Source: Lishizhenia tianjinensis (lineage in GTDB: Bacteria; Bacteroidota; Bacteroidia; Flavobacteriales_D; Crocinitomicaceae). From it: a stretch of 64,000 bases of DNA. The stretch's first letter is position 1. Each line of letters starts with the position of its first letter. A program made the position numbers and the translations under genes. The stretch covers positions 1-64,000 of the forward strand of contig NZ_FPAS01000002.1 of NCBI RefSeq assembly GCF_900116425.1, read 5' to 3'. Of the stretch, positions 43,286-64,000 are shown in pieces. Below the pieces are notes generated by a model. That model did no database searches and was not told the DNA's origin. It saw nothing but the letters and a program-made list of their open reading frames with translations.

Positions 43286-44707
43286 ATGAATTTATCTATG
43301 CCTAATAAATCTGAAATTATATCGGAACATAGAAATGTTAGTATAGCTGATATTGAGTTAGATTTTTCTTTGTCAAAATTGAATGATGGAAAAGTAGACA
43401 GAAGTTTGGAGGAGTTTTTATTAGATGAGAAATTTATTACAGGAATAAAGTCCCTTTTTGGAGACAACAAGTTGAATTTAAGCGAAAATCGATCAGAGGA
43501 TCATATTGCTTTAAGAGATTTAGAAGAAAATTATAAGTTTTCAATTGCTGAAGAAGTTAAAGCTGTAGAAGTCAAACAAAGTGACTTTATCAAACAGTTT
43601 CATAATGACGTCGATAGTGGTTTATTCGAAGCTGTTATTATTTTAGGAGTTGGTGGGAGTACTTTAGGTATTAGTTTGGTAGCTCAAGCACTTGAGGTAA
43701 ATTTTGATACAAGTGTTGACTACTTGGTTGTTGATAATGTGGATAGTTTTTTTGTAAACAAAGTAAGGAAAGACTACGATTTGTCCAAATGTCTGTTTGT
43801 GATTTCATCGAAAACATTTACAACACTTGAAACCATGACAATGGCTCGGGTTTTTAAGGATGAGTTAATTACATTAAAGGGAAGTAAAAGCACATGGCAA
43901 AGTAATTTCATTGCGATTACAGCAAATGAAAGTTTAGCACAAGATTTTGGGTTGGAAAAAAAGCGAGTATTTAGGTTTTGGGATTCTATTTCTGGACGAT
44001 TTAGTATTTGGTCAGCAATAGGTATGCCTTTGGATTTAATTTTTGGTTCAGAAACTCATCTTGAATTAAGAAAAGGTGCTGCGAAATTGGATAAGGAAGT
44101 TATTGAAAATTTATCCATAGAAAACTCGGTGTTTCAATATGCTTACAGGCAGTATGTAAATTTGAAAGTTTTCGATTCAAAGGCTGAAGCCATCGTTGCT
44201 TATGATTCGTCATTGAGTAAATTGAGTGATTATTTGCAACAGCTCTATATGGAAAGCCTTGGTAAGGCATATACATCAGAAGGTGAACAGATACTTCAGT
44301 ATACATGTCCACTTATATTTGGAGGTGTGGGGACAAATGATCAACATAGTTACTTCCAATTGTTACATCAAGGTAAGCAAGTAATTCCTGTCACTTTCAT
44401 TGAAGTGAAAAATAAAAAAAGAGATAAGTATAACTTGCAAGGTGTGTTAAATAAAAACTTATCAGCACAGAGAAAAGCATTGTTTGAAGGCCGTTTACAA
44501 GAAGGAAAACCTTTGTGTAGGCAATTCTATGGAGGTAGACCAAATGTTAAGTTGAGTATGGAAGAATTGACTCCCTTTACGCTTGGACAGTTAATGGCGT
44601 TTTATGAGCATGTCGTGTTCGCTTTAAGCCAATTCCAACAAGTGAATTGCTTTGATCAATGGGGCGTAGAATTAGGTAAGGAACTTTACAAGGAAAATCA
44701 AAAGTGA
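43286..44707 (+). CDS. pgi: Glucose-6-phosphate isomerase
   Basis: A 473-residue cytoplasmic enzyme interconverting glucose-6-P and fructose-6-P. Evidence: the sugar-phosphate SIS-like motif ILGVGGSTLGISL, SKTFTTLETM, the substrate motif FWDSISGRFSIWSAIGMPL, GGVGTNDQHSYFQLLHQG (catalytic Glu/His region) and VNCFDQWGVELGKEL. It is shorter than the 545-residue E. coli type. Its place in a polysaccharide cluster suggests it feeds fructose-6-P toward UDP-GlcNAc and glucose-6-P toward dTDP-glucose. Its stop overlaps the GTG start of wecB. A second pgi elsewhere in the genome is possible. Confidence 0.92.
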   Translation: MNLSMPNKSEIISEHRNVSIADIELDFSLSKLNDGKVDRSLEEFLLDEKFITGIKSLFGDNKLNLSENRSEDHIALRDLEENYKFSIAEEVKAVEVKQSDFIKQFHNDVDSGLFEAVIILGVGGSTLGISLVAQALEVNFDTSVDYLVVDNVDSFFVNKVRKDYDLSKCLFVISSKTFTTLETMTMARVFKDELITLKGSKSTWQSNFIAITANESLAQDFGLEKKRVFRFWDSISGRFSIWSAIGMPLDLIFGSETHLELRKGAAKLDKEVIENLSIENSVFQYAYRQYVNLKVFDSKAEAIVAYDSSLSKLSDYLQQLYMESLGKAYTSEGEQILQYTCPLIFGGVGTNDQHSYFQLLHQGKQVIPVTFIEVKNKKRDKYNLQGVLNKNLSAQRKALFEGRLQEGKPLCRQFYGGRPNVKLSMEELTPFTLGQLMAFYEHVVFALSQFQQVNCFDQWGVELGKELYKENQK

Positions 44708-45846
44708 GAAACAATAAATTGAAAACTACGAAGAAAGCACTGATTGTATTTGGTACGAGACCAGAGGCAATAAAAATGGCTCCTTTAGTTAAGGAGTTTC
44801 AAAAATCGAAGGAAATAGTAACTAGGGTCGCTGTTACTGGTCAACATAAAGAAATGTTGGATCAAGTATTAGCTTTTTTTGAAATTACTCCCGACTATGA
44901 CTTAAGCTTGATGAAACCTAACCAAAACTTGTACAACTTAACCGGTGAAGTTATTGGTGGGATGAAACCCATTTTGGAAGAATTTCAACCTGACTATGTT
45001 TTTGTACATGGAGATACTACTACGACTATGGCAGCGGGCATAGCTGGCTTTTATTCAGGGGCTAAAGTCTGTCATGTAGAGGCAGGATTGAGAACGCACA
45101 ATATGATGTCGCCGTTTCCAGAAGAAATGAATCGACAAGTCGCAGGAAGGGTAAGTACCTTTCATTTTGCACCAACAGATAAGTCAAAGTCAAATTTGAT
45201 TCAAGAAAACGTTCCAGAAGCAAAAATTTTGGTAACGGGAAATACGGTAATCGATGCTTTGTTTGAATCTTCCAAGCGTGTGGAAACCTTAGAGAATGAT
45301 GAAGTAAAAGCACTAAAAAAGGATGTCGATTTTTCTAAGCGAATTATTTTGGTTACGGGACATAGAAGAGAAAATCATGGTCAAGGTTTTATCAATATAT
45401 GTGCTGCTTTAAAGGAGATAGCTGTAAATAATCAAGATGTAGAAATTGTTTATCCAGTTCACTTAAATCCCAATGTTCTTAAGCCGGTTAATGCATTATT
45501 AGGAGAGGTAAAGAATATACATTTGGTGGCTCCACTTTCATACCCCAGTTTTGTTTGGATGATGAACAAGTCCTACATGATCATTACCGATAGCGGAGGT
45601 GTACAAGAAGAGGCACCAAGTTTAGGAAAGCCTGTTTTAGTTATGCGTGATACAACGGAAAGACCAGAAGCTGTTGAAGCAGGAACGGTTATTTTAGTTG
45701 GTACGAATACAGATAAAATTGTCAGTGAAGCAGAGGCATTACTGCAGAATAAGGAAAAGTATAATTCAATGAGTGCACTACACAACCCTTATGGAGACGG
45801 AAAGGCGTGTAAAAGAATTGTTGAGTTCATACTTAAAGATAAGTAA
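44704..45846 (+). CDS. wecB: UDP-GlcNAc 2-epimerase (non-hydrolysing)
   Basis: A 380-residue enzyme that converts UDP-GlcNAc to UDP-ManNAc. Signatures: FGTRPEAIKMAPL at the N-terminus, VHGDTTTTMAAG, HVEAGLRTHNMMSPFPEE-N, TGHRRENHG and TDSGGVQEEAPSLGKPVLVMRDTTERPE. The start is GTG at 44704, overlapping the pgi stop (GTGA). It directly precedes wecC, so the pair makes UDP-ManNAcA, as in enterobacterial common antigen. Confidence 0.95.
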   Translation: MRNNKLKTTKKALIVFGTRPEAIKMAPLVKEFQKSKEIVTRVAVTGQHKEMLDQVLAFFEITPDYDLSLMKPNQNLYNLTGEVIGGMKPILEEFQPDYVFVHGDTTTTMAAGIAGFYSGAKVCHVEAGLRTHNMMSPFPEEMNRQVAGRVSTFHFAPTDKSKSNLIQENVPEAKILVTGNTVIDALFESSKRVETLENDEVKALKKDVDFSKRIILVTGHRRENHGQGFINICAALKEIAVNNQDVEIVYPVHLNPNVLKPVNALLGEVKNIHLVAPLSYPSFVWMMNKSYMIITDSGGVQEEAPSLGKPVLVMRDTTERPEAVEAGTVILVGTNTDKIVSEAEALLQNKEKYNSMSALHNPYGDGKACKRIVEFILKDK

Positions 45847-45868
45847 AAAGGTTTTTAAAAATATAGAA

Positions 45869-47074
45869 ATGAGTCAAGTTGTAACGATAGGTTTAGGATA
45901 CATAGGTCTTCCGACCTCTGCATTGATAGCCCAAAATGGAATTTCTGTTCACGGTGTTGATATCAATCAAAAGGTGGTGGATACTATCAATGCCGGAAAA
46001 ATTCATATAGTAGAACCTAGTTTGGATGAGGCAGTTGCTTCAGCCGTTGAGAAAGGATATTTAAAAGCGGACACAAAACCTGTTGAAGCAAATACCTATT
46101 TGATCGTAGTCCCCACTCCATTTAAAGGAAATCACGAACCTGATATTTCCTTTGTAGAAGCTGCGACCAAGAATATTCTTCCTTTCTTGAAAGAGGATGA
46201 TTTATACATCATAGAATCTACCTCGCCTATCGGTACTACAGAGAAAATGATGGACTTGATTTATACGTCAAGACCAGAATTAAAGAATAAGTTAAACATA
46301 GCTTATTGTCCAGAACGTGTATTGCCAGGGAATGTGATGCATGAACTCGTATATAACGATAGAGTAATTGGTGGAGTGGATGAAAAATCAACACAGAAGG
46401 CCATTGCTTTTTACAGTCAATTCGTGAAAGGGGAGTTACATCCAACCAATGCGCGTACAGCTGAGATGTGTAAACTAACAGAAAACTCATCACGTGATGT
46501 GCAAATTGCATTTGCGAATGAACTTTCTTTGATTTGCGATAAAGCCGGTATCAATGTTTGGGAATTAATAGAATTAGCCAATAAGCACCCAAGAGTAAAC
46601 ATCTTACAACCTGGATGTGGTGTTGGGGGACATTGTATTGCAGTTGATCCTTATTTTATCACTGCGGAGTATCCTTTAGAATCAAAAATTATTGGTACGG
46701 CAAGAGAGGTAAATAATTACAAGTCTTTCTGGTGTGCTGAAAAGGTGAAAACGGCCAAGTTAGAATTCCAATTAAAACATGGAAGACGCCCAAGTGTTGC
46801 GATTATGGGACTTGCATTCAAACCAAATATTGACGATTTAAGAGAGTCTCCTGCAAAATACATCGCGCAAAAGATTTTGCAAGATGCGCAAGATGAGGAG
46901 TACTTTGTAGTAGAGCCAAATATTGAGGACCACAACGTTTTCAAATTAACGGATTACAAAACTGCTGTGGAAAAAGCAGACATCATCGCTTTATTGGTGG
47001 CACATGATGAATTTAAAGGAATGGATATCTCTGAAGATAAGGTTGTTCTTGATTTTTGTGGAGTTAAGAAATAA
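45869..47074 (+). CDS. wecC: UDP-ManNAc 6-dehydrogenase
   Basis: A 401-residue NAD-dependent dehydrogenase that makes UDP-ManNAcA. I start at 45869 (MSQVVTIGLGYIGLPTSA); the longer frame would overlap wecB by more than 70 bp. Motifs: GLGYIGLP, VPTPFKG, ESTSPIGTTEKM, YCPERVLPGN, AEMCKLTENSSRDVQIAF, catalytic GCGVGGHCIAVDPYF and GLAFKPNIDDLRESPA. The IESTSPIGTT and CKLTENS variants separate it from the WbpO-like enzyme at 41990. Confidence 0.95.
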   Translation: MSQVVTIGLGYIGLPTSALIAQNGISVHGVDINQKVVDTINAGKIHIVEPSLDEAVASAVEKGYLKADTKPVEANTYLIVVPTPFKGNHEPDISFVEAATKNILPFLKEDDLYIIESTSPIGTTEKMMDLIYTSRPELKNKLNIAYCPERVLPGNVMHELVYNDRVIGGVDEKSTQKAIAFYSQFVKGELHPTNARTAEMCKLTENSSRDVQIAFANELSLICDKAGINVWELIELANKHPRVNILQPGCGVGGHCIAVDPYFITAEYPLESKIIGTAREVNNYKSFWCAEKVKTAKLEFQLKHGRRPSVAIMGLAFKPNIDDLRESPAKYIAQKILQDAQDEEYFVVEPNIEDHNVFKLTDYKTAVEKADIIALLVAHDEFKGMDISEDKVVLDFCGVKK

Positions 47075-47148
47075 CCAACAAAAATGGATGAGGGTATGTT
47101 AGAGGAGCCCAGGAGAATAGAATTGTTATTGAATTAAGAAGTAAAAAA

Positions 47149-48174
47149 ATGCAAAATATACTTATTACTGGAGGGGCTGGATTTATTGGAAGTCACGTTG
47201 TGCGTCAATTTCTAACAGATTACCCAGAGGCAAATATTGTTAATTTAGATTTACTCACTTATGCCGGTAATTTGGAAAATTTATCCGATGTAATAAATCA
47301 TCCAAATTATCATTTTGTTCAAGGAGATATAGCTGATGAAGAACTTGTAAATAATTTGTTTGCCAAATTTCAGTTTACAGGTGTAGTTCATTTGGCGGCA
47401 GAGTCACATGTTGATCGATCAATAAAAGAACCATTAGCTTTTGCGCGAACGAATATTATGGGTACAATGGTTCTTTTGAATGCCTTTAAGAATTTATGGA
47501 AGAATGATTGGGAAGGAAAAAGATTCTATCACATTAGTACAGATGAAGTGTATGGAACTTTAGGAGAAACAGGTTTGTTTACAGAATCTACTCCTTATGA
47601 TCCCAATTCACCCTATTCTGCAAGTAAAGCGAGTTCTGATCATTTTGTAAGGGCCTACGGTGAGACTTATGGCTTGCCTTATGTTATAAGTAATTGCTCT
47701 AATAATTATGGACCTAATCAGTATCCAGAAAAGTTAATCCCTCTTTTCATCAATAATATCATCGAGAATAAGTCTCTGCCTGTTTATGGTGATGGAAAAT
47801 ACACGAGGGATTGGTTGTATGTAATTGATCATGCAAGGGCAATATCATTATTGTTTGATAAAGCCACGAATGGGGAGACTTATAATATCGGTGGGTTCAA
47901 TGAATGGCAGAATATTGATCTTATAAAGGAATTGTGCAAGCAAATGGATAAGTGTTTAGAGCGTACACCTGGTGAGAGTGAGAAGTTAATCACTTTTGTG
48001 AAAGACAGACCCGGTCATGATTTACGCTATGCCATTGATGCCTCTAAAATTAATAAGGATTTTGGTTGGAAACCATCAGTTACCTTTGAAGAAGGCTTGG
48101 CTAAAACCTTGGATTGGTATATGAAGAATGAGGATTGGTTAGCTTCTTTAAGAAAGAGAAAAGTTGAGTTGTAA
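47149..48174 (+). CDS. rfbB: dTDP-glucose 4,6-dehydratase
   Basis: A 341-residue extended SDR that makes dTDP-4-keto-6-deoxyglucose. Motifs: [25 protein letters not shown], the catalytic [13 protein letters not shown] (Asp-Glu pair), and [22 protein letters not shown]. Length is normal. It is followed 17 bp later by rfbA. No rfbC/rfbD (needed for rhamnose) is seen in the window, so the 4-keto sugar probably goes to the aminotransferase at 50501. Confidence 0.96.
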
Positions 48175-48191
48175 CTATAAAACCTAAAAGC

Positions 48192-49064
48192 ATGAAAGGA
48201 ATTATATTAGCGGGAGGATCAGGTACAAGGCTACACCCCTTAACAATGGCTGTAAGTAAACAGCTTTTACCCATTTATGATAAGCCGATGATCTATTATC
48301 CGCTATCAGTATTAATGTTGGCAGGAATTAGGGAAATATTAATTATTTCGACACCACATGACCTTCCGAATTTTGAAAAATTATTAGGTGATGGTAGTCA
48401 ATTTGGGGTTCAATTAAGTTACAAAGTTCAACCGAGTCCTGATGGTTTAGCACAAGCTTTTATTCTAGGAGAAGAGTTTATTGGACAGGAAGATGTTTGT
48501 CTCGTTTTAGGTGACAATATTTTCTATGGTGCTGGTTTACAAAAATTACTTAGTGACTCTGTTCAAACTGTAAAACAAGAACAAAAAGCAGTTGTTTTTG
48601 GTAATTATGTAAATGATCCTGAAAGATATGGCGTTGCAGAATTTGATGAGAACAGAAATGTAATCAGTTTAGAAGAGAAACCAAAGCAGCCAAAATCAAA
48701 CTACGCTGTTGTAGGTTTGTATTTTTATCCAAACTCTGTAATAGAAATAGCAAAAGATGTAAAACCATCAGATCGAGGAGAATTAGAAATTACGACTGTA
48801 AACCAAAGCTATCTTCACCAAGAAAATTTAAAAATGCAAATTTTAAGTAGAGGATTCGCATGGTTGGATACTGGAACTCATGAAGCTTTAACAGAGGCCA
48901 CGGAGTTTGTAAAAGCAGTAGAGAAACGAACAGGGTTAAAAATTGCTTGTTTAGAAGAGATAGCATTAAATTACAAATGGATAACTAAAGAAAGCGTAGA
49001 AGAAAACCTAAAAGGAATGAAGGGTGACTACTTTGACTACATAAAAAAAATTACGCTTAAATAA
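48192..49064 (+). CDS. rfbA: Glucose-1-phosphate thymidylyltransferase
   Basis: A 290-residue nucleotidyltransferase that makes dTDP-glucose from glucose-1-P and dTTP. Motifs: [42 protein letters not shown] (metal Asp) and [19 protein letters not shown]. The C-terminal [11 protein letters not shown] region follows. Length is standard. It stands between rfbB and the flippase; the next ATG follows its stop directly. Confidence 0.97.
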
Positions 49065-50504
49065 ATGTCGCTAAAAAAACAAACATTCTCAGGTGTATTC
49101 TGGACTTTCGTTGATACGTTTCTAGTACGTGGATTAACATTCTTAGCAATGGTTTTGTTGGCGAGATGGTTAGGACCAAAGGATTTTGGTTTAGTAGGAA
49201 TGATCGCAGTTTTTATTGCAATTGGAACTACATTGACTGATAGCGGTTTAACTAACTCTCTAATTAGAACAAAGGATCCTGATCAAGGTGATTATTCAAC
49301 GGTGTTTTATGTGAATATTGTGATGAGTTGCTCAGTCTATACCATTATATACTTTTCAGCACCTGGAATTGCACATTTTTTTGATCAGAAAGTTCTTATC
49401 GATATTATTAGAGTTTATTCCTTACTTTTTATTGTGCTCGCTTTTTCAGCTGTTCAATTGGCAATTTTTACAAGAGATATGGAATTTAAAACAATAACCA
49501 AGGTCAATACACCAAGTACAATAATCGGTGTGTCTATTGGTCTGTATTTGGGATACAATGGTTATGGGGTTTGGAGTATAGTTTGGATGTATCTTAGTAC
49601 TCAACTTGTAAAAGCGGCGTTACTTTGGTTATTTTCTAGTTGGAAACCAAAGCTTCTTTTTTCAAAAGAAAAGTTTATTTACCACTACAATTTTGGTTAC
49701 AAATTACTTCTGTCTGCTTTGATAGATACTATCTTTAAAAATAGTTACAACATATTAATTGGGAAGTATTTCTCTGCCCAAACTTTGGGGTTTTACGAGC
49801 GAGCAAAACAATTTGGAGAATATCCATCTTCCACGTTGACGAATGTGCTTAGTAAAGTAAGTTATCCTATGCTTTCAAAAATTCAAGATGATTCAAAACG
49901 GCTTGAGACTTCTTACAAAAAGCTGATTAGAGTTTCATTTTTCGTAATTGCGCCTTTAATGTTAGGAACTGCGGCAGTTGCTAAGCCACTCTTTTTATTG
50001 GTTTTAGGACAAGAATGGTTGCCTGCAGTTGTGTTTTTCCAGATACTTAGTTTAGCGATGATGCTTTATCCCATCCATGCATTTAACCTTAATATATTGA
50101 AAGTTTATGGTAGAAGTGATTTGTTTTTAAAATTAGAGATTATCAAAAAAAGTATTATAACAGTCTCTATAATAGTCGCATTTCAATTTGGAGTTTTAGG
50201 ATTAGTGTGGTCAAGTGTATTTACATCATTTGCCTCATTAGGCATTAATATGTTTTATTCAAGTCGATTAATAAACTACCCTGTATTCGTACAGTTAAAA
50301 GATCTTGGTCAAATATTTATAACCACTATTTTAACAGCGTTAGCGATGTATAGCTTAACAGTTCTTTTACCTAAAGAACAACTGGAATTACAAGTTGTTT
50401 TAGCATCTATCTTCGGTGCGTTACTTTATATTTGTATCAACTATGTAAATAAAAAAAGTCCATTACATGAAGCTGTGTCACTTTACAAAACAAGAAACCA
50501 ATGA
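49065..50504 (+). CDS. Polysaccharide flippase (Wzx/WzxC-like, MOP family)
   Basis: A 479-residue inner-membrane protein with about 12-14 TMs. The N-terminus KKQTFSGVFWTFVDTFLVRGL and LARWLGPKDFGLVGMI are typical of the polysaccharide-synthase/WzxC branch of MOP exporters. It flips undecaprenyl-linked repeat units to the periplasm. It overlaps the aminotransferase gene by 4 bp. Together with the Wzy-like protein at 57954 this indicates a Wzx/Wzy-dependent pathway. Confidence 0.92.
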   Translation: MSLKKQTFSGVFWTFVDTFLVRGLTFLAMVLLARWLGPKDFGLVGMIAVFIAIGTTLTDSGLTNSLIRTKDPDQGDYSTVFYVNIVMSCSVYTIIYFSAPGIAHFFDQKVLIDIIRVYSLLFIVLAFSAVQLAIFTRDMEFKTITKVNTPSTIIGVSIGLYLGYNGYGVWSIVWMYLSTQLVKAALLWLFSSWKPKLLFSKEKFIYHYNFGYKLLLSALIDTIFKNSYNILIGKYFSAQTLGFYERAKQFGEYPSSTLTNVLSKVSYPMLSKIQDDSKRLETSYKKLIRVSFFVIAPLMLGTAAVAKPLFLLVLGQEWLPAVVFFQILSLAMMLYPIHAFNLNILKVYGRSDLFLKLEIIKKSIITVSIIVAFQFGVLGLVWSSVFTSFASLGINMFYSSRLINYPVFVQLKDLGQIFITTILTALAMYSLTVLLPKEQLELQVVLASIFGALLYICINYVNKKSPLHEAVSLYKTRNQ

Positions 50505-51580
50505 TTCCTGTTACTAAGCCCTTTTTACCTCCGAAAGAGGAATACCTAGAGTATATTTCAACAGTTTGGGATACACAATGGCTCACCAATATGGGTCCGT
50601 TGTCTGTTCAACTAGAGGATAAGCTTTCTAATTTTTTAAAGTTAGAAAACTTACTCTATGTAACCAATGGAACAATTGCCTTACAAATGGCGATTAAAGC
50701 CTTGAATTTAGGTGGTGAGATTATTACTACACCATTTTCATTCATAGCTACCACCAGTAGTATTGTTTGGGAAGGTTGTACTCCTGTTTTTGTTGATATT
50801 GATGAAAATTCTTTAAACATCGATCCTAAGAAAATAGAAGAAGCCATTACTGAAAAAACAACGGCCATATTAGCAACCCATGTCTATGGTAATCCTTGCG
50901 ATGTAGTAGCGATTGAAGAAATTGCAAAAAAGCACAAGTTAAAGGTGATATATGATGGTGCCCACGCATTTGGGGTGGAGATAAATGATAGATCGATTTT
51001 TGAATATGGGGATATTAGTATTTGTAGCCTACACGCTACAAAACTTTATCACTCCACAGAGGGTGGATTAATCATCACCAAAGATCAAAAATTATATTCA
51101 AAACTCAAGTCTATGCGAAATTTTGGTTTTGCCGGACCTGAATCTTTCAGTGAGTTGGGTATAAATGGGAAGAACTCGGAGTTTCATGCGGCAATGGGGC
51201 TCGCAAATTTGCCTTATATAGAAGGTATTATTCAAAAAAGAGGAGAATTATCAGCAAGATATGATGCTAATTTAGCCGAGTTTAAGTCGAGGAAGCCTCA
51301 ATGGTATCATCAAACTTTGCAAAATTATGCATATTATCCTATTGTTTTAGAATCAGAAGCCTTGCTTTTAAAGTGCTCTGATTTTCTCAAAAAAAGAGAA
51401 ATATTTGTTAGGCGATACTTTTACCCTTCACTAGCAACTTCTCTTCCATACCTTCCGAATAAGTCGCTAAATATTACCGATGATGTTTCTAAACGAGTTT
51501 TATGTCTTCCTTTGTATGTAGATTTAACTATTGCAGAGATAGATATGATATGTAGTTTAATGTTAAAATGTACTGATTAA
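50501..51580 (+). CDS. DegT/DnrJ/EryC1-family sugar aminotransferase
   Basis: A 359-residue PLP enzyme that transfers an amino group to a nucleotide keto-sugar. Evidence: VTKPFLPP start, NGTIALQMAIKAL, TTPFSFIATTSSIVWEG, PVFVDID, ATHVYGNPC, the PLP Asp in YDGAHAFG and the Schiff-base Lys in SLHATKLYHSTEGG. Given rfbA/rfbB nearby, the likely substrate is dTDP-4-keto-6-deoxyglucose, giving a 4-amino-4,6-dideoxyhexose (VioA/WecE role). A C3 aminotransferase is less likely because no 3,4-ketoisomerase is seen. It overlaps the flippase gene by 4 bp. Confidence 0.9.
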   Translation: MIPVTKPFLPPKEEYLEYISTVWDTQWLTNMGPLSVQLEDKLSNFLKLENLLYVTNGTIALQMAIKALNLGGEIITTPFSFIATTSSIVWEGCTPVFVDIDENSLNIDPKKIEEAITEKTTAILATHVYGNPCDVVAIEEIAKKHKLKVIYDGAHAFGVEINDRSIFEYGDISICSLHATKLYHSTEGGLIITKDQKLYSKLKSMRNFGFAGPESFSELGINGKNSEFHAAMGLANLPYIEGIIQKRGELSARYDANLAEFKSRKPQWYHQTLQNYAYYPIVLESEALLLKCSDFLKKREIFVRRYFYPSLATSLPYLPNKSLNITDDVSKRVLCLPLYVDLTIAEIDMICSLMLKCTD

Positions 51581-51616
51581 TTAGGGTTAGGTTTCCTTTA
51601 AAATCTTTTTTAGAAA

Positions 51617-52816
51617 ATGAAAAAATTGTTACTACTAGGAGGTCTTAGATATTTAGTACCGGTAATACAAAAAGCGAAAGCCTTAGGGTATTATGTTATT
51701 ACTTGTGACTATTTGCCAAGTAATATTGCACATAAGTACTCGGATGAGTACCATAACGTGAGTGTTACAGATAAAGAAGCTGTATTGCAATTAGCTAGTT
51801 CACTTAAAATTGATGGGATTTTGTCTTTTGCTGTTGATCCCGGAGTAACTACTGCAGCCTACGTTTGTGAAAAATTGAATTTACCAAGTTCAGGGCCGTA
51901 TGAGTCAATAAGGATTCTTCAAAATAAAGGGTTGTTTAGAGAATTCCTAGAGAAACATGGCTTTAACGTACCTAAATCAAGAAGTTATAAAATAAAGGAT
52001 GAAGCATTAGTATCATTTGACGAATTTGATTTGCCTGTTATTGTCAAACCAGTAGACTCTGCAGGTAGCAAAGGTGTTTCAAAGGTAGAAAGAAAAGAGG
52101 AATTGGATGAGGCAATCGAACATGCGCTTTCAAACTCACCTTCTAATACATTTATAATAGAAGATTTTTTAGAATGTAAGTCATATTCATCGGATACTGA
52201 TTGTTTCTCCATAGATGGTGAGTTTAGGTTTATATCTTTTTCAAACCAAAGGTTTGATAAAAATTCGCCAAACCCATACACCCCTTCGGCATATAGTTGG
52301 CCTTCATCTATTTCTTCTAAAAATCAAGAGGAACTCAAAAGAGAACTTCAACGATTAGTAAGTTTGTTGAAAATGAGGACTTCTATATATAATGTTGAAG
52401 TTAGAGAGACCACAAATAACAAGGCTTACATAATGGAAATTTCACCTAGAGGTGGAGGGAATAGATTGGCTGAAATGATAGAGTATGCTACGGGGGTAGA
52501 TTTGATTACTTGTTCGATCCAGGCAGCTTTAGGGGAACCTATATCGGTTATTGAGCAGCCAAAATATAATGGTAATTGGGCTGAAATAATTTTGTATAGT
52601 AATAAAGCAGGATTGTTTCATGAAGTTATTATTGATAAGCGCATACAGGAGAATGTTGTTGAATTGGATTTGTGGATTAAAAAAGGTGAGGTCGTAAATG
52701 CTTTTACCGGTGCAAACGAGGCTATTGGAACTTTGGTTTTAAAGTTTGATAATCCTATTACATTGGAATCGATAGTTTCTGATTATACAAATTATATTGA
52801 AGTAGTGGTTAATTAA
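51617..52816 (+). CDS. ATP-grasp carboxylate-amine ligase
   Basis: A 399-residue ATP-grasp enzyme. It has an N-terminal pre-ATP-grasp Rossmann-like domain (about 1-90; LLLGGLRYLVPVIQKAKALG). The ATP-binding fold follows (about 105-300), with FDLPVIVKPVDSAGSKGVSKV as the glycine-rich loop region, IIEDFLE and the Mg motif EISPRGGGNR. A C-terminal domain follows. Such enzymes join a carboxylic acid to an amine through an acyl-phosphate. In this cluster it could link an amino acid or hydroxy acid to an amino sugar or its N-acyl group. The substrate is unknown. A second ATP-grasp gene starts at 63100. Confidence 0.88.
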   Translation: MKKLLLLGGLRYLVPVIQKAKALGYYVITCDYLPSNIAHKYSDEYHNVSVTDKEAVLQLASSLKIDGILSFAVDPGVTTAAYVCEKLNLPSSGPYESIRILQNKGLFREFLEKHGFNVPKSRSYKIKDEALVSFDEFDLPVIVKPVDSAGSKGVSKVERKEELDEAIEHALSNSPSNTFIIEDFLECKSYSSDTDCFSIDGEFRFISFSNQRFDKNSPNPYTPSAYSWPSSISSKNQEELKRELQRLVSLLKMRTSIYNVEVRETTNNKAYIMEISPRGGGNRLAEMIEYATGVDLITCSIQAALGEPISVIEQPKYNGNWAEIILYSNKAGLFHEVIIDKRIQENVVELDLWIKKGEVVNAFTGANEAIGTLVLKFDNPITLESIVSDYTNYIEVVVN

Positions 52817-52825
52817 TCGAGTAAA

Positions 52826-53800
52826 ATGAAAGCTATAGGTGGATATTTTGAATTAGAACTTTCAAATAATAAAGAGTATCATAGTAATGCGATTTGTCTT
52901 AATTCTGGGCGAAATGCTTTTGAATATATCCTTAGAGCAAAGGAATATAAAAAAGTCTATTTACCGTATTATACATGCGAGGTAATGCTAGAACCAATTG
53001 AGAAATTAAACATAGAAATTGAGTTTTATTCTATAAATGAAAAGTTTACACCAATATTTGATTTTACTCAGCTAGGAAAAACAGATGTCTTTGTCTATAC
53101 AAATTATTTCGGAATTTGTGATAAACAAGTTTTAAAGTTAAGTAAAGAGGTTGATAATCTAATAGTGGACAATTCACAAGCGTTTTATTCTATCCCTTTA
53201 CCAAATATAGATACTTTTTACTCTCCTCGAAAATTTTTCGGGTTGGCAGATGGTGCTTATCTTTTTACTGATAAGAAGCTAAATCTGAATATCAAACAAG
53301 ATATATCCATGCACAGAGTTCAACATCTTTTAGGGAGGATAGAGAAAGGGGCTGAAGAGTATTATAAGTTCTTTCAGGAAAATGACAATAAATTAAAGAA
53401 TCAGCCTATAAAAAGAATGTCCGAGTTAACAAAAAGGATGTTAAAAAGTATTGACTATGATGATGTAGCTTATAAACGGCGAACTAACTTTAAGACGATA
53501 CATAATATTTTAAAAGAGTTTAATAATTTAACATTTAATCTAGAAAATACCTCGGTTCCCATGGTGTATCCATTTTGGATTTCAAACGGATCTGAATTGA
53601 AAAAAGTTTTAATAAATAATAAAGTGTTTACATCTACATATTGGGAGAATGTTAAGGATTGGACGTCTTCAGGAACTTTAGAATATGAATTTACAGAGAA
53701 CGTGCTTTTTATACCTATAGATCAAAGGTATAATGAAAAAGATCTTTTGCTTATCGTAGATTTACTAGGTCTAGAAAAAGGTAGAATTACAAGTGCATAA
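52826..53800 (+). CDS. Atypical DegT-like PLP aminotransferase
   Basis: A 324-residue protein with the DegT fold order but low similarity. NSGRNAFEYILRAK replaces the usual N-G-T-A-L motif, and YLPYYTCEVMLEPIE matches the substrate loop. IVDNSQAFYSIP supplies the PLP-pyridine Asp, and FYSPRKFFGLADGAYLF supplies a Lys at the Schiff-base position. It is about 40 residues shorter than typical. It may be a real aminotransferase on an uncommon substrate; the key Asp and Lys remain, so loss of activity is not implied. It lies between the ATP-grasp and first CitE-like genes (9 and 3 bp gaps). Confidence 0.75.
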   Translation: MKAIGGYFELELSNNKEYHSNAICLNSGRNAFEYILRAKEYKKVYLPYYTCEVMLEPIEKLNIEIEFYSINEKFTPIFDFTQLGKTDVFVYTNYFGICDKQVLKLSKEVDNLIVDNSQAFYSIPLPNIDTFYSPRKFFGLADGAYLFTDKKLNLNIKQDISMHRVQHLLGRIEKGAEEYYKFFQENDNKLKNQPIKRMSELTKRMLKSIDYDDVAYKRRTNFKTIHNILKEFNNLTFNLENTSVPMVYPFWISNGSELKKVLINNKVFTSTYWENVKDWTSSGTLEYEFTENVLFIPIDQRYNEKDLLLIVDLLGLEKGRITSA

Positions 53801-53803
53801 TTT

Positions 53804-54619
53804 ATGTTAGACTCATATTTCTTTATTCCCGGAGATAAAAAAAAGTATATTGATAAAATAGAAAGCATTCCATCTGATTTTCTTGTTGTCGATTTGGAGG
53901 ATTCGGTACCTGTAAAATCTAAAGGTTTGGCGCAGGAGTTAGCTTTGAAAGTAGCGATTAAAGATAACTACTACATTAGAATTCCATTTTTTGAAAACAG
54001 ATATACAGATGAAGAATTAAAAAAGCTCATCCTCCATTATGAGGGAAGGATTGCAGTTCCAAAAGTAAATGATGTTGATGAGATTTATAGAATAAAAACT
54101 TTAGCGCCTGATTTAAAGTTGAAGATGATTATTCTGGTTGAAACACCGAGGTGTCTAATTAATATTAAGGAAATTTTTGATCAGTTCTCAACGGACATAC
54201 ACGGTGTTACATTTGGGAGTCATGACTTTTGTTCCTTAACAGGAATTAAACCTACTGAGGAAAATATCAATACATACAAAAGAGATCTTGTGTTGTACAC
54301 CAAAGCATATAATGTGAAATTTATAGACGGTGTAAATTTGGATTTAAGTAATTTCTCTCAATTCAGAAAAGAGTGTGTTTCTGCTTTTGAAATGGGGATG
54401 GAGGGTAAGTTTTTAATCCATCCAATGCAACTCGATAAACTTAAAGAAATAGAATATTTTACAAAGGATGAAATGATGGAGATCAAGGAAGTATATGAGC
54501 ATATAAAATCAATTCCTTCTGATTCCATTGAAGTTTATAAAATAAATGGAAAGGTGTATGAGAAACCACACCTTTTAAGAATCAAAAAAATAATGTCTAA
54601 GCTAGACCCAAAAAAATAA
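53804..54619 (+). CDS. CitE-like (HpcH/HpaI) CoA-ester lyase, first copy
   Basis: A 271-residue TIM-barrel protein of the citrate lyase beta/malyl-CoA lyase family, which cleave or form C-C bonds of CoA thioesters with glyoxylate, pyruvate or oxaloacetate. Motifs: FFIPGDKKKYIDKI, VVDLEDSVP (Asp/Glu near 30), the Mg-binding Glu in ILVETPRCLINI, the Mg-binding Asp in FGSHDFCSLTG, and KFLIHPMQLD. It is only distantly similar to the second copy at 55077. The two flank a MaoC-like hydratase, and all are packed within a few bases. Reaction direction and substrate are unknown. Confidence 0.83.
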   Translation: MLDSYFFIPGDKKKYIDKIESIPSDFLVVDLEDSVPVKSKGLAQELALKVAIKDNYYIRIPFFENRYTDEELKKLILHYEGRIAVPKVNDVDEIYRIKTLAPDLKLKMIILVETPRCLINIKEIFDQFSTDIHGVTFGSHDFCSLTGIKPTEENINTYKRDLVLYTKAYNVKFIDGVNLDLSNFSQFRKECVSAFEMGMEGKFLIHPMQLDKLKEIEYFTKDEMMEIKEVYEHIKSIPSDSIEVYKINGKVYEKPHLLRIKKIMSKLDPKK

Positions 54620-54624
54620 ATGAT

Positions 54625-55077
54625 ATGGAAGCAAATGAAATGGGAAACTATTTTGAAGACTTTGTTGTCGGTGAAGTTATACAACACAGTCAAACAAAAA
54701 CTATCTTTGAGTCAGACAACAATCTTTTTTCATTGTTAACAATGAATCATCACCCAGTCCACCTTAACTCGGACTATGCAGAACAAAAACAACACGGAAA
54801 AATATTAGTAGTTGGTACTTTAGTCTTTAGTGTTGCTGTTGGAATTACAGTGATGGATATTAGTGGTAAAGCAGTGGCCAATTTAGAATATGAATCTGTG
54901 CAGCATCTCAACCCAGTACATATCAATGATACGTTATATGTTAGAACAAAAGTTTTGGATAAATGGGAGACCTCAAAAGGAGACAGAGGGGTGGTTTATG
55001 TAGAGACATTTGCAAAGAATCAACATGGTGTTGATGTTTTATCATTTAGACGTAAAGTTTTAATTTCTAAGAAATAA
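54625..55077 (+). CDS. MaoC-like CoA hydratase/dehydratase
   Basis: A 150-residue hot-dog protein of the MaoC (R)-hydratase family. The core NHHPVHLNSDYAEQ-QHGK and VVGTLVFSVAVGITVMDISG, followed by VANLEYESV and NDTLYVRTKV, match the branch that includes mesaconyl-CoA and itaconyl-CoA hydratases. That branch has Asn where classical MaoC has the first catalytic Asp, and His is kept. ATG at 54625 is used; MGNYFEDF five codons later is also possible. It is coupled (TAATG) to the CitE-like gene downstream, the pairing seen for hydratase plus citramalyl-/methylmalyl-CoA lyase in C5-acid metabolism. Confidence 0.85.
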   Translation: MEANEMGNYFEDFVVGEVIQHSQTKTIFESDNNLFSLLTMNHHPVHLNSDYAEQKQHGKILVVGTLVFSVAVGITVMDISGKAVANLEYESVQHLNPVHINDTLYVRTKVLDKWETSKGDRGVVYVETFAKNQHGVDVLSFRRKVLISKK

Positions 55078-55973
55078 TGGAGGTGAATGATTTACTACTG
55101 AGAAGTTTAATGTTTGTGCCGAGTCACAATGAAAAATTAATGGATAGCGCTGCTAAGTCAAATGCAGATGTTTTGCTACTTGACGTAGAAGATTCTGTGC
55201 AACCATTTAACAATAAACAAATCGCTAGAGATACTATTTTAAAATACATCCAAGCCAATACTTTTAAGAATAAGAGAATATTTCCTAGGGTTAACGATAG
55301 GGAAAGTGGAGAATTATTAAAAGATGTATTTCAATTGACGGTTGATGGAATCAACGGGTTTATGTATCCTAAAGCTAAACGAGGAGAAGACATCTATTTC
55401 TTCGATAAACTACTTGAAACCATTGAATATGAAAAAGGAATTCCGGTAGGTACTTTTAAAATAATTCCATTAATAGAAACAGCATCGGCTGTAATGAATG
55501 TTCAAGAAATTTGTACGGCTTCTCCAAGAGTTATAGCAATTGCATATGGATCAGAGGATTTTGTTACAGATTTAGAAGGGATTCATGATTTAGAACACCA
55601 AAGTTTATTCACACCAAGGGCTATGATTGCCATGGGTGCAAGAGCGGCTGGTGTAATTCCTATAGATACTGTTCACGTTAGGGTGCATGATTTGGAAGAT
55701 TTGGAGAAAAATCTAAAAATTTCAAAAAACTTGGGCTTTGAAGGAATGTTGGTCTTAAACCCTAAAGAAATCCCACTGGTTCATCAATATTATTCTCCAA
55801 CGAAACAAGAAGTTGAGGATGCTAAAGCTATGCTTTCTATGGCTGACCAAGCTAAGAAAGAAGGTGAAGGAGTAGCAATAATAAACGGAAAATTTATTGG
55901 TCCTCCAATGATTAAAGCAGCTAAAAAAACGCTTATTAAAGAATCATTAATAAACAGAGGTAAGGGCGTTTGA
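55077..55973 (+). CDS. CitE-like CoA-ester lyase, second copy
   Basis: A 298-residue HpcH/HpaI-aldolase/citrate-lyase-beta-like protein with the complete family pattern. This comprises RSLMFVPSHNEKLMDSAA, LLLDVEDSVQP, FPRVNDRESG, MYPKAKRGED, Mg Glu in PLIETASAVMNVQEI, Mg Asp in AYGSEDFVTDL, and GMLVLNPKEIPLVHQYYSPT. Best described as malyl-, methylmalyl- or citramalyl-CoA lyase-like. It overlaps the MaoC-like stop by one base. A lyase beside an (R)-hydratase suggests synthesis or conversion of a hydroxylated dicarboxylic acyl-CoA. No CoA-transferase is seen nearby. Confidence 0.9.
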   Translation: MEVNDLLLRSLMFVPSHNEKLMDSAAKSNADVLLLDVEDSVQPFNNKQIARDTILKYIQANTFKNKRIFPRVNDRESGELLKDVFQLTVDGINGFMYPKAKRGEDIYFFDKLLETIEYEKGIPVGTFKIIPLIETASAVMNVQEICTASPRVIAIAYGSEDFVTDLEGIHDLEHQSLFTPRAMIAMGARAAGVIPIDTVHVRVHDLEDLEKNLKISKNLGFEGMLVLNPKEIPLVHQYYSPTKQEVEDAKAMLSMADQAKKEGEGVAIINGKFIGPPMIKAAKKTLIKESLINRGKGV

Positions 55974-56082
55974 TAAGGTCAATAGAGACTTCTTCGCGTG
56001 AAACGTCTTTTATTCGATCCCATAGAACTCGGGTATTGTCAAAGGAAAAATAGATTATTCTACAAATTATAAAACAAATGAT

Positions 56083-56754
56083 ATGAAAACGAAAGTAATC
56101 GTTATAGGAGGAAAAGGAGGGGCTGTAGTTGTTGGAGAACAGATTTATGATGCTCAAATGAAAGGTGCTAATGTAGAGTTTTTAGGTTATGCTTTTGATG
56201 ATGAAAGTTTTGGTACTGAAATTAATGGTTTTCCGATTGTAGCAAAAACGAAAGAGGTGTATTCGAAATTTAAGGATGATGAAGATGTCAAGTTTATTTT
56301 TCAGCTGTATAGACCTGATTTAATGAATGAAAGAATTGACCTGTTAAAAAGTTATCACATACCTGAGGATAGATTTTATACATTTATTCACCCATCATGT
56401 GTGGTTTCTCCAAGCGCGAAAATTGGTGTTGGAGTGGCTATAATGGCCAATAGCGTTGTTAATTCTAATGTGGTTATTGGTAATCATTGTACAATTCACT
56501 CCAATTCATTAATAGGTCATGATACCAAAATGGGTAATTACAATTTCGTAGCGGCTCATAATGTAATTGGTAGCAATAATAATATAGGAAGGGCTAATTT
56601 TTTAGGACTTAATTCTACGTTTAATAATTATCTGAATATTGGGGACAATTGTTTTGTGGGTATGGCCTCAAATGTTATAAAATCGATTCCTGATAATGTT
56701 AAGGTTTACGGCAACCCAGCCAAGCCTTTTACCAGTAAAATTAAAGCACTTTAA
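56083..56754 (+). CDS. NeuD/PglD-type sugar acyltransferase
   Basis: A 223-residue protein with an N-terminal Rossmann-like nucleotide-sugar binding domain (about 1-95; VIVIGGKGGAVVVGEQI) and a C-terminal left-handed beta-helix of hexapeptide repeats (about 105-205; SPSAKIGVGVAIM, NVVIGNHCTI, NIGDNCFVGM). PglD and NeuD relatives transfer acyl groups from CoA to a sugar amine or hydroxyl. The His usually acting as base may be in HSNSLIGHDT. Here it is the natural acceptor of an acyl-CoA from the upstream lyase/hydratase genes, in place of WecD in the ECA pathway. That link is inference. Confidence 0.88.
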   Translation: MKTKVIVIGGKGGAVVVGEQIYDAQMKGANVEFLGYAFDDESFGTEINGFPIVAKTKEVYSKFKDDEDVKFIFQLYRPDLMNERIDLLKSYHIPEDRFYTFIHPSCVVSPSAKIGVGVAIMANSVVNSNVVIGNHCTIHSNSLIGHDTKMGNYNFVAAHNVIGSNNNIGRANFLGLNSTFNNYLNIGDNCFVGMASNVIKSIPDNVKVYGNPAKPFTSKIKAL

Positions 56755-56783: not shown

Positions 56784-57914
56784 ATGGATAAATTAAAAGT
56801 TCTACATATACACACAGATAAAAAATTTGTTGGTGCTTATCTTAATTTTGAAGGAGATAACTTTAGCAATAAGTCAATAATTATTAGCGAAAACAACACG
56901 TTAGAGTTACCGAATATTCAGATTTTTAGCAAATTTGATTTAGACGAAATAGTTAAGCTGTGTAATCAATTTGATGTGGTTGTGTTGTACAATCTTGACG
57001 TAGTCAAAAGTAAAATAGCTTTAAAAATTTCAACTGATATTAAAATTATTTGGAGGTTTTTTGGAACGGAATTGTATAGTCTAAAATACCTCAGCTACAT
57101 TAGCAAAGAAGGCTTCCTAAAGGGGCATACTTTCAAACAAAAGGTAAAAAGTAAGTTGAAAGAATATCGTTTTCTTCAAAGCTTTAATAGTCTTATTAAT
57201 AGAAAAGAAAATCCATATAGATTGTTCTTTAAAGCGATTGAACGCATTAATTTTATTTTAGTTATTAGCAAAGAAGAGTATGGTTATCTGAAAAGTGTTT
57301 GGCCAACGATTCCTGCTTTTATTAAGGCGCCACCTGTAAGTTATTCAAAGGAAGTTGAAGCTATTAATTATGAGGAAAAAAATGCTCAAAATAAACCGAG
57401 AATTATTGTGGGAAATAGCCGATCAAAGTATAATAATCATCTAGATATTCTAAATATAATTGAAAAATATTCAACGAAGCATAACTATAACTTTAAGTTG
57501 TTTTTTAGTTATGGAAAAGAAGATATTTACTCACAACGAATTACGAAGGAAGTTTCGAACAAGCCCTACTTTGAATTAATAACAGACTTTCTCTCTAAAG
57601 AAGATTTTAACAGCACCTATAATGGTTCATCTGCACTGGTCATTAATAGTTTTCGTCAATTAGCAGGTGCAAACATTATATTAGCCCTCGAGAAAGGGCT
57701 CAAAGTATATTTAAATGATAAGAACATTCATAAAAATTGGCTGATTAATGAAGGGTTTAAAATATTTTCAATAGCTGAATTTGAGGAAGATCTTAAAAAT
57801 AACAAGCTCTTCTACGATGAAGAAACAGCAAAACACAATAATCAGAATCTTAAAACATTCATCAATAGATACACCAAGGAAGATTTTCAAATCAACGTTA
57901 AGAATTTAATGTAA
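56784..57914 (+). CDS. GT56 (WecF-like) glycosyltransferase
   Basis: A 376-residue protein resembling WecF, the TDP-4-acetamido-4,6-dideoxygalactose:lipid II transferase (GT56). It has an N-terminal LKVLHIHTDKKFVG and a central FFGTELYSLKY. The nucleotide-binding IIVGNSRSKYNNHLDIL and LVINSFRQLAGANIILAL-like region fit the family layout. If correct, it transfers a dTDP-4-amino-dideoxyhexose derivative to a lipid-linked acceptor at the inner membrane, agreeing with rfbA, rfbB and the aminotransferase upstream. Similarity is moderate; another GT-B family is possible. Confidence 0.72.
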   Translation: MDKLKVLHIHTDKKFVGAYLNFEGDNFSNKSIIISENNTLELPNIQIFSKFDLDEIVKLCNQFDVVVLYNLDVVKSKIALKISTDIKIIWRFFGTELYSLKYLSYISKEGFLKGHTFKQKVKSKLKEYRFLQSFNSLINRKENPYRLFFKAIERINFILVISKEEYGYLKSVWPTIPAFIKAPPVSYSKEVEAINYEEKNAQNKPRIIVGNSRSKYNNHLDILNIIEKYSTKHNYNFKLFFSYGKEDIYSQRITKEVSNKPYFELITDFLSKEDFNSTYNGSSALVINSFRQLAGANIILALEKGLKVYLNDKNIHKNWLINEGFKIFSIAEFEEDLKNNKLFYDEETAKHNNQNLKTFINRYTKEDFQINVKNLM

Positions 57915-61873: not shown

Positions 61874-63103
61874 ATGAAAATTTTATTAATTCATCAATAC
61901 TTTCTAGAACTCGATGATGCGGGAGGTTCCAGATGGAACGAAATGGCTGAAACTTGGACGAGTTTAGGACATGAAGTAACTGTAATAGGGGGGATGATGC
62001 ATCCTAACGGTTCTGAGAAAAGGCTAGAATATAAAGGCAAACATTTCGTTAGAAAGCAGCATGGTAAAGTAAATATACTCAGGTGCCACGTGTCAGAAAG
62101 TTATAATTCTAGTTTTACTGGACGTTTATGGGGTTACTTCTCATTCATGTTTTCTTCACTTTGGGGAGGCCTATTTAAAGTAAAAGGAAAATATGATGTA
62201 GTACTTGTAACTTCACCTCCATTGTTTGTTGGTTTCAGTGGTTATATTGTTTCAAGGCTTAAAAGAATTCCTTTAGTTTTTGAAGTGAGAGATTTGTGGC
62301 CAGAATCAGCCATTGATACGGGAGTTCTTTCAAATAAAATGATTATCAAACTGGCATACTGGTTTGAGAAGTTCATTTATAAGAAATCAAAACTCATTAA
62401 TGTATTGACTCCAGCTTTTTACAACACCTTAAAAGATAAAAAAGGGATTGCAGAAGAAAAACTTGCGATGATACCAAATGCTGCAGACTTTACTTTGTCA
62501 GAAAGAGTGTTGAATAATTTTGATAGGGATAAGTTTAGAAAGGAGCATGACTTGGAAGGAAAATTTGTACTTACTTATGTCGGGGCACATGGAGTTGCAA
62601 ATCATTTGATTCAGGTGTTAGATGCGGCAGAGTTATTAAGAGATACAGCGGTTCTTTTCTTACTCATAGGTCAAGGAATGGAGAAAGAAAAGTTAATTAA
62701 AGAAGCTACAAAACGAAAACTTGAAAATGTTAGGTTTCTGGATCCTGTTCCAAAAGCCGAGGTATTTCAATATATCTTAGCTTCAGAAATGGGAATGAGC
62801 GTATTGAAAAAGGTAGATACATTCAAGACTATTTATTCTAACAAAACTTTCGATTATATGTCTTGTAAAACACCAATATTAATGGCTATTGATGGAGTTT
62901 CGAGAGAACTTTTGGAAAAGGCAGGTGCAGGAAGCTATGTAGAACCTGAAAATGCGGAAGCATTTAATTCTGTAATAAGGGAATACATAAAAAATCCAGA
63001 AAAACTAAAGATTCAAGGAGACAAGGGATATGCGTATGCAAAAGAAAATTTTGACAGGCGAAAATTGGCAAATAAATATTTAAGTTTAATAGAAAAAGTA
63101 TGA
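61874..63103 (+). CDS. Glycosyltransferase family 4 (WbuB-like)
   Basis: A 409-residue GT-B enzyme resembling WbuB/L-fucosamine transferases. Motifs: ILLIHQYFLELDDAGGSRW, the VTSPPLFVGFSG segment, FEVRDLWPESAIDTG, MIPNAADF, LTYVGAHGVANHL, FLDPVPKAEVFQYI and a C-terminal E-rich loop. The DLWPES motif is characteristic of this subgroup, which often adds the second sugar (a deoxy-amino sugar or ManNAcA) of O-antigen units. Its stop overlaps the ATG of the next gene (ATGA). Confidence 0.9.
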   Translation: MKILLIHQYFLELDDAGGSRWNEMAETWTSLGHEVTVIGGMMHPNGSEKRLEYKGKHFVRKQHGKVNILRCHVSESYNSSFTGRLWGYFSFMFSSLWGGLFKVKGKYDVVLVTSPPLFVGFSGYIVSRLKRIPLVFEVRDLWPESAIDTGVLSNKMIIKLAYWFEKFIYKKSKLINVLTPAFYNTLKDKKGIAEEKLAMIPNAADFTLSERVLNNFDRDKFRKEHDLEGKFVLTYVGAHGVANHLIQVLDAAELLRDTAVLFLLIGQGMEKEKLIKEATKRKLENVRFLDPVPKAEVFQYILASEMGMSVLKKVDTFKTIYSNKTFDYMSCKTPILMAIDGVSRELLEKAGAGSYVEPENAEAFNSVIREYIKNPEKLKIQGDKGYAYAKENFDRRKLANKYLSLIEKV

Positions 63104-64000
63104 ATATTTTAATTTCTTCCGCTGGTAGAAGGGTTTCGTTAATAAGAGCTTTTCAGAAAGAATTGAAAATTTCAGGTTTGAAAGGTAAGGTATTTACTAC
63201 AGATTTAAATCCCGCTTTATCTGCGGCTTGTCAAATTAGTGATAAGGCTTTTAAAGTCAGGAAAATATCTATGGAAGGGTCTGTAAATGAACTTTTGAAT
63301 ATTTGTCTCGAAAATATGGTTTCCTTAGTGGTACCAACTATTGATACAGAATTAAAAATTTTAGCCGAGAACAAAGAGTTATTTAGAGAGAAAGGCATAG
63401 AAATTTTAGTATCTGATTTAGATTTTGTCAATAGTTGTAGGGATAAACGAAAAATTCATGATTTCTTCGATAGTTTAGCTATTACAAGAGCTTTAGAATT
63501 TTCAAAAAACGACCTAAGATTTCCGGTTTTTGTGAAACCATATGATGGAAGTCGATCGCAAGGAGTATTTTTGTTTGAAAATATTAGTGAAATACCACAT
63601 GAGGTTTTTCAAAATCCTAAAAACATGTATTTACAATATTTCAATAATAAGGATTATGATGAGTTTACTGTTGATATGTATTTCAATAGAAAAGCAAAAT
63701 TAATTTGTTCTGTACCTCGTGAGCGTATATTTGTCCGTGATGGAGAAGTCAATAAGGGGTGTACTCGTAAAAATGAAATAGTAAATTATCTTAAGAAGAA
63801 ATTTGATGGTATTTCAGGATTGCGAGGATGTATCACTTTACAAATCTTTAAACACAAAACGGAGGATAAATATTGTGCAATTGAAATTAATCCTAGATTC
63901 GGTGGAGGCTTCCCTCTGAGCTATAAAGCAAAAGCTAATTTTCCAAAATGGATCATCCATGAGTATTTATTGGGTGAACAAATAGATGAATATTTTGATG
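63100..64000 (+). CDS. ATP-grasp ligase (PylC/CarB-like), partial at right edge
   Basis: The frame begins at 63100 (MNILISSAGRRVSLIRAF), overlapping the preceding stop, and stays open for 300 codons to the edge. A pre-ATP-grasp domain (about 1-105; TTDLNPALSAACQISDKAF, VPTIDTELKILAEN) is followed by the ATP-binding region. This has FPVFVKPYDGSRSQGVF, the D-x-D-like DEFTVDMYFNRKAK and the Mg motif IEINPRFGGGFPLS. It belongs to the PylC/carbamoyl-phosphate-synthase-like ATP-grasp group often found in capsule and O-antigen clusters. It is only distantly similar to the ATP-grasp protein at 51617. The substrate is unknown. Confidence 0.88.
   Translation, partial: MNILISSAGRRVSLIRAFQKELKISGLKGKVFTTDLNPALSAACQISDKAFKVRKISMEGSVNELLNICLENMVSLVVPTIDTELKILAENKELFREKGIEILVSDLDFVNSCRDKRKIHDFFDSLAITRALEFSKNDLRFPVFVKPYDGSRSQGVFLFENISEIPHEVFQNPKNMYLQYFNNKDYDEFTVDMYFNRKAKLICSVPRERIFVRDGEVNKGCTRKNEIVNYLKKKFDGISGLRGCITLQIFKHKTEDKYCAIEINPRFGGGFPLSYKAKANFPKWIIHEYLLGEQIDEYFD

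Follow-up and report, generated by a model that had tools for sequence, protein, structure and literature searches.

What are a MaoC-type hydratase and two CitE-like proteins doing amid genes for the synthesis of an amino sugar? The question is raised by a cassette of seven genes found in Lishizhenia tianjinensis, a member of the Bacteroidota, within a window of 64,000 nucleotides (positions 1 to 64,000 of contig NZ_FPAS01000002.1). The seven reading frames are all open, tightly packed and carried by the plus strand between positions 50501 and 56754, in the order DegT aminotransferase, ATP-grasp ligase, a protein here denominated p3, CitE1, MaoC, CitE2 and a NeuD-type acyltransferase. Pfam and NCBIfam scans back the families assigned to them in the first-pass annotation, p3 excepted, which is placed by a structure match. 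The survey described below suggests that MaoC and CitE2, optionally aided by CitE1, probably supply an acyl-CoA with which a transferase of the NeuD/VioB type modifies a TDP-4-amino-4,6-dideoxyhexose.

Matches to MaoC (54625..55077, plus strand; PF01575, 66 bits) were found at 61-71% identity in 7 other genomes among 395 genomes across Bacteroidota. The next tiers in the same set are 3 matches at 42-43%, followed by values of 31% or less. By sequence, the MaoC-CitE2 pair belongs to a tight subfamily. The assignment of MaoC to the itaconyl-/mesaconyl-CoA hydratase branch holds at branch level only: RipB is the best NCBIfam model, but the score, 123.4 bits, is below the cut-off of 340 required for membership. 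RipC scores are similarly below cut-off (72.9 and 121.2 bits versus 375). The source genome is 99.99% complete. In it, PF03328 is matched by CitE1 and CitE2 only, and the MaoC query matches itself only at E<=0.001.

MaoC relatives have been searched in the genomes of 84,980 species. Of 246 relatives, the best 80 were taken as named loci, in which genes were labelled by clustering and best match to the window proteins rather than by curated models. As 26 of the 80 loci span less than 20 kb, gene absences are uncertain. CitE2 is found in 78 loci, being missing only from L088, where the contig ends inside maoC, and L098. MaoC and CitE2 are direct neighbours in 75/80 loci; when 4 duplicate loci are counted, the two genes share a strand in 86/86 pairs, at a spacing of -14 to +38 bp in 83/86. 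CitE1 is present in 28/80 loci, directly upstream of maoC in 25, and DegT in 64/80. At least one glycan gene accompanies the block in 79/80 loci, and at least two in 62/80. Candidate N-acyltransferases of the NeuD, NeuD-b or AAC(3) type occur in 76/80; an acyltransferase directly adjoins the block in 61 loci, and is at most 3 genes away in 74.

As a control, 24 loci hosting MaoC relatives at 42% identity or less were inspected. DegT, Wzx, RmlA, RmlB, p3 and ATP-grasp genes were found in 0/24 of these. CitE-like neighbours were found in 3/24, NeuD-like hexapeptide proteins in 2/24; in one control locus, L055, a family III CoA-transferase adjoins the MaoC relative. The linkage of the block to sugar genes exceeds chance. 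The tie between CitE/MaoC and sugar genes, postulated from the window, is hence borne out by the survey and the control, on which we reject a stray catabolic insertion. Relatives of MaoC at 60% identity or more were not found on plasmids, where the best match (Streptomyces, L156) reaches 50% and no sugar-gene match lies nearby. A pattern search for AMP-binding CoA ligases in 89 loci retrieved one protein only (L084). CoA-transferases were not found among the scanned cassette proteins; in the survey loci no systematic search was made.

The sugar pathways joined by the block vary. DegT proteins at least 35% identical to that of the window are encoded in 36 of the 80 loci, other DegT proteins in 16; FdtA-type isomerases mark 10 loci and nonulosonate genes 7, and no DegT was found in the DNA examined of the remaining 11. 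In 6 of the 7 loci with neuB (nonulosonate), citE1-maoC-citE2-neuD-pseG are contiguous. In Maribacter luteus (L081), citE1-maoC-citE2-neuD are flanked by genes encoding PseB, PseC, PseF and PseI, all scoring over NCBIfam cut-offs, and PseG, matching below cut-off. NeuD is the candidate N-acyltransferase in this locus, because no GNAT/PseH was found among its other reading frames of at least 90 amino acids. Gelidibacter sediminis (L056) and Myroides marinus (L059) are further cultured strains that bear the block. The linkage to rfbA/rfbB, present in the window, does not extend far, rmlA and rmlB at 50% identity or more being found together in only 15/80 loci. Nor do the seven families travel together: DegT, ATP-grasp, p3, NeuD and CitE2 are found together in 10/80 loci, the full set including CitE1 in one (L061). 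A fixed seven-gene unit bound to rfbA/rfbB is thus ruled out. Since loci of both the FdtA and nonulosonate types use the block, this is, judging from its gene surroundings, a portable module that plugs into several amino-sugar pathways, rather than a part of one.

Both CitE-like proteins retain residues of the active site. In CitE2 (55077..55973, plus strand; PF03328, 141 bits) R71, E134 and D161 are kept in 87/87 sequences, and in CitE1 (53804..54619, plus strand; PF03328, 81 bits) R59, E113 and D141 in 35/35 homologues, duplicate loci being counted in both sets. The roles of the residues equivalent to R71, E134 and D161 in malyl-CoA lyase are described in PMC3832036. The CitE2 model has a pLDDT of 93.0, and its closest folds are malyl-CoA lyases. 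The lid of the active site is different. According to the same source, the arginine and a lid Asp are conserved superfamily-wide, except for Glu in the malyl-CoA thioesterase group; the lid Asp, Asp299 in the Rhodobacter sphaeroides malyl-CoA lyase, handles the enolate, and an Asp-to-Asn substitution at the corresponding position of Escherichia coli malate synthase G abolishes activity (PMC3832036). In CitE2 the lid position is Gly in 87/87 sequences (83/83 without duplicates), invariably within G275-P276-P277, and in CitE1 it is Glu in 33/35 (30/31 without duplicates). Among 38 comparison proteins, Asp was found in 34, Gly in 3 and Glu in 1; as three rows repeat L052-L054, the distinct set consists of 35 proteins (Asp 31, Gly 3, Glu 1). 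The comparison proteins with Gly are fused CitE-MaoC polypeptides. The Ruegeria protein L186, which adjoins mdh and a MaoC gene, has Glu at the lid too.

In the tree, CitE2 proteins form one clade (100/98), with the natural CitE-MaoC fusions as sister group (93/95). Of 19 sampled CitE1 proteins, 18 fall in one clade (97/97), from which L124 stands apart on a long branch; the clade also leaves out L186, itself a long unplaced branch. Fusions of MaoC to a CitE with the GPP motif are found in the window's own family (L012:8535-10538, L013:1981-3972 and L014:733-2223). In the DNA examined, none of the three fusions belongs to a polysaccharide cluster. The neighbours of the L012 fusion (iron-containing redox enzyme, cupin, methyltransferase, TauD-type oxygenase, ferredoxin reductase) suggest that it serves a different small-molecule pathway.

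The lid residues differ from Asp, and therefore neither CitE protein is to be assumed an ordinary lyase. The view that the two lyases run in the condensing direction is made doubtful by the replacement of the lid Asp by Gly in 87/87 CitE2 and by Glu in 33/35 CitE1, and simple condensing lyases are disfavoured. CitE1, with its Glu, may be thioesterase-like. CitE2, deprived of the standard mechanism, would either draw on some other base for a Claisen-type reaction or convert CoA esters in a different way. It is conceivable, though we hold it only tentatively, that the invariant GPP lid denotes a new class of CoA-ester enzymes, which with MaoC would carry out a new two-step synthesis of dicarboxylyl-CoA for glycan decoration.

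As we infer direction, substrate and product of these reactions, the pathway would proceed as follows. RmlA, RmlB and DegT would make a TDP-4-amino-4,6-dideoxyhexose (Qui4N or Fuc4N) for a surface polysaccharide. MaoC and CitE2, plus CitE1 in the window, would form a CoA thioester or alter an existing one; the likeliest candidates are C4-C5 dicarboxylyl-CoAs, hydroxylated or unsaturated, of the malyl, citramalyl, mesaconyl or itaconyl kind. The adjacent NeuD/VioB-type transferase (56083..56754, plus strand; TIGR03570, 143.3 bits) would move the acyl group onto the sugar amine or, alternatively, onto the amine of an amino acid first attached by the ATP-grasp enzyme. The acyl group is probably a hydroxy- or unsaturated dicarboxylyl, a product with a carboxyl group being favoured by the retained site for Mg and 2-oxoacid. 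No isocitrate lyase was found in the source genome, a mild hint that the partner is pyruvate rather than glyoxylate.

MaoC could make the acyl-CoA alone, for example (R)-3-hydroxybutyryl-CoA from crotonyl-CoA, the CitE proteins being auxiliary, as thioesterases or regulators by which incorrect CoA esters are removed. The 3-hydroxybutyryl group is known as N-acyl on Qui3N, Fuc3N and Qui4N, according to PMC4869667 and PMC3210612, and CitE1 has the Glu by which malyl-CoA thioesterases are reported to differ from the rest of the superfamily. Yet CitE2 is as constant as MaoC, and its constancy and kept active-site residues argue against a dispensable accessory, so that this explanation is rather unlikely. 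Even less credit can be given to a mixed complex, in which the lid Glu of CitE1 would serve the active site of CitE2 and restore a normal condensing lyase. In malyl-CoA lyases each active site is covered by a lid from the adjacent subunit, as stated in PMC3832036, and CitE1 sits directly upstream of maoC in 25/80 loci; but CitE1 is absent from 52/80 loci, with the caveat of short loci noted above, and CitE2 keeps GPP in all of these that were examined. It seems most improbable that an itaconate- or mesaconate-type catabolic pair sits in glycan clusters by happenstance. Among NCBIfam models RipB and CitE/RipC do score best, and MaoC-CitE tandems with the normal Asp exist elsewhere (L052-L054, L190). 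This explanation is already largely refuted by scores far under the RipB and RipC cut-offs, by the lack of a CoA-transferase among the scanned cassette proteins, by the separate CitE2 clade and by the contrast between glycan genes in 79/80 loci and core sugar genes in 0/24 controls.

Several points weigh against acyl-CoA supply by MaoC and CitE2. The loss of the lid Asp tells against the usual chemistry of CitE proteins, the supply of glyoxylate is doubtful in a genome devoid of isocitrate lyase, and a 3-hydroxybutyryl or other simple acyl group made by MaoC alone remains a candidate. NeuD scores below the TIGR03570 cut-off of 160.8 bits. NeuD proteins are moreover common in glycan clusters, and the 76/80 count covers loci with the block only. 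In 4/80 loci (L088, L104, L119, L122) none of the three acyltransferase types was found; the first three of these loci are short or cut contigs. Control loci differ from block loci in gene family as well as in context.

Upstream of the cassette, RmlB (dTDP-glucose 4,6-dehydratase, 47149..48174, plus strand; TIGR01181, 469.5 bits, cut-off 365.1) and RmlA (glucose-1-phosphate thymidylyltransferase, 48192..49064, plus strand; TIGR01207, 457.5 bits, cut-off 360.65), both of the TDP-4-amino-4,6-dideoxyhexose pathway, score over cut-off. DegT (50501..51580, plus strand; PF01041, 289 bits) has DesI as best NCBIfam model (256 bits, cut-off 650), and is probably a sugar C4 aminotransferase, yielding Qui4N or Fuc4N. 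The ATP-grasp protein (51617..52816, plus strand; PF13535, 58 bits), found in 24/80 loci, has as solved relatives 4dim and the L-amino acid ligase 3vot, the latter making amino-acid attachment plausible; it is possibly an aminoacyl or acyl ligase working on the sugar amine. N-acyl-alanyl amino sugars are known. In 8/80 loci a class I aminotransferase gene is found amid DegT, ATP-grasp and NeuD-b genes (e.g. L134:6040-7200); the product may supply the amino acid to the ligase.

No Pfam or NCBIfam match was found for p3 (52826..53800, plus strand) at E<=0.001. Foldseek places its AlphaFold model (mean pLDDT 87.9) among the DegT sugar aminotransferases (DesV/WlaRG/WbpE), with a probability of 1.00 and a TM score of about 0.6. 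D115, Q118 and K136 are invariant in 19/19 homologues, and K136 would be, by its position, the catalytic lysine. On the strength of the model, p3 is a putative divergent PLP-type protein with the DegT fold, lying outside current family models. It is found in 18/80 loci, accompanied by ATP-grasp in 13 and by WbqC in 5, never by both (0/18), a hint that this ATP-grasp and WbqC are functionally equivalent.

The cassette is preceded by a gene for a Wzx-type flippase (49065..50504, plus strand; PF13440, 303.6 bits) and followed by one for a weakly WecF-like glycosyltransferase (56784..57914, plus strand; NF002756, 59.8 bits versus a cut-off of 457; no Pfam match). Homologues of WecB and WecC, scoring over cut-off, precede RmlB and RmlA. 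In enterobacterial common antigen clusters the gene order is wecB-wecC-rffG-rffH-aminotransferase-wecF. The set found in the window at 44704-50504 and 56784-57914 (wecB, wecC, rmlB, rmlA, flippase, aminotransferase, weak WecF-like transferase) resembles it, and by analogy the block may stand in for the acetyltransferase step. Another ATP-grasp protein, which resembles carbamoyl-phosphate synthase and has a PylC-like N-terminal domain, is encoded at 63100-63999 and runs past the end of the window.

The association of this MaoC subfamily with a GPP-type CitE is a sequence marker from which uncommon N-acyl decorations of surface sugars can be predicted, in many Bacteroidota and in a few phyla besides. 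It is on groups of this sort that serotype and host recognition depend there. The block is also a source of natural CitE-like enzymes without the Asp required by malate synthase. They bear on a question raised in PMC3832036, namely how lyases and thioesterases of the superfamily come to differ in their chemistry.

Known systems resemble the block in part. The VioA/VioB pathway to N-acylated viosamine is alike in its enzymes, as the nearest solved chains are 2po3 for DegT and VioB (7txp) for NeuD; to our knowledge, it includes no acyl-supply genes. In the anthrose operon of Bacillus, a hydratase, a DegT aminotransferase and an N-acyltransferase lead to a TDP-4-amino sugar that bears a 3-hydroxyacyl substituent; we know of no CitE-like protein in it. 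The itaconate RipB/RipC enzymes and the Mycobacterium Rv2498c-type beta-hydroxyacyl-CoA lyase share with the block the tandem of MaoC and CitE-like proteins, the folds and the Mg/2-oxoacid residues. The block differs for its glycan context, the lack of a CoA-transferase in the cassette scan and the Gly or Glu at the lid. Among the open-licence papers searched, no description of MaoC/CitE genes inside an O-antigen or capsule cluster was found. In Flavobacterium psychrophilum, the O-antigen R-group genes similarly combine acyl-making genes with a pglD homologue in decorating a 4-amino sugar, but according to PMC6519341 they rely on ACP, ketoacyl synthases and a reductase in place of MaoC and CitE-like proteins. 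N-(4-malyl) amino sugars are reported from Pseudoalteromonas rubra and Vibrio vulnificus in PMC3210612. Their acyl group is a dicarboxylic hydroxyacyl amide, joined via the carboxyl that malyl-CoA would carry; the sugars differ from those proposed here, and the likeness lies in the chemical group. Acyl-supply genes inside polysaccharide clusters are of a known kind, and the version made of MaoC and CitE2 appears new.

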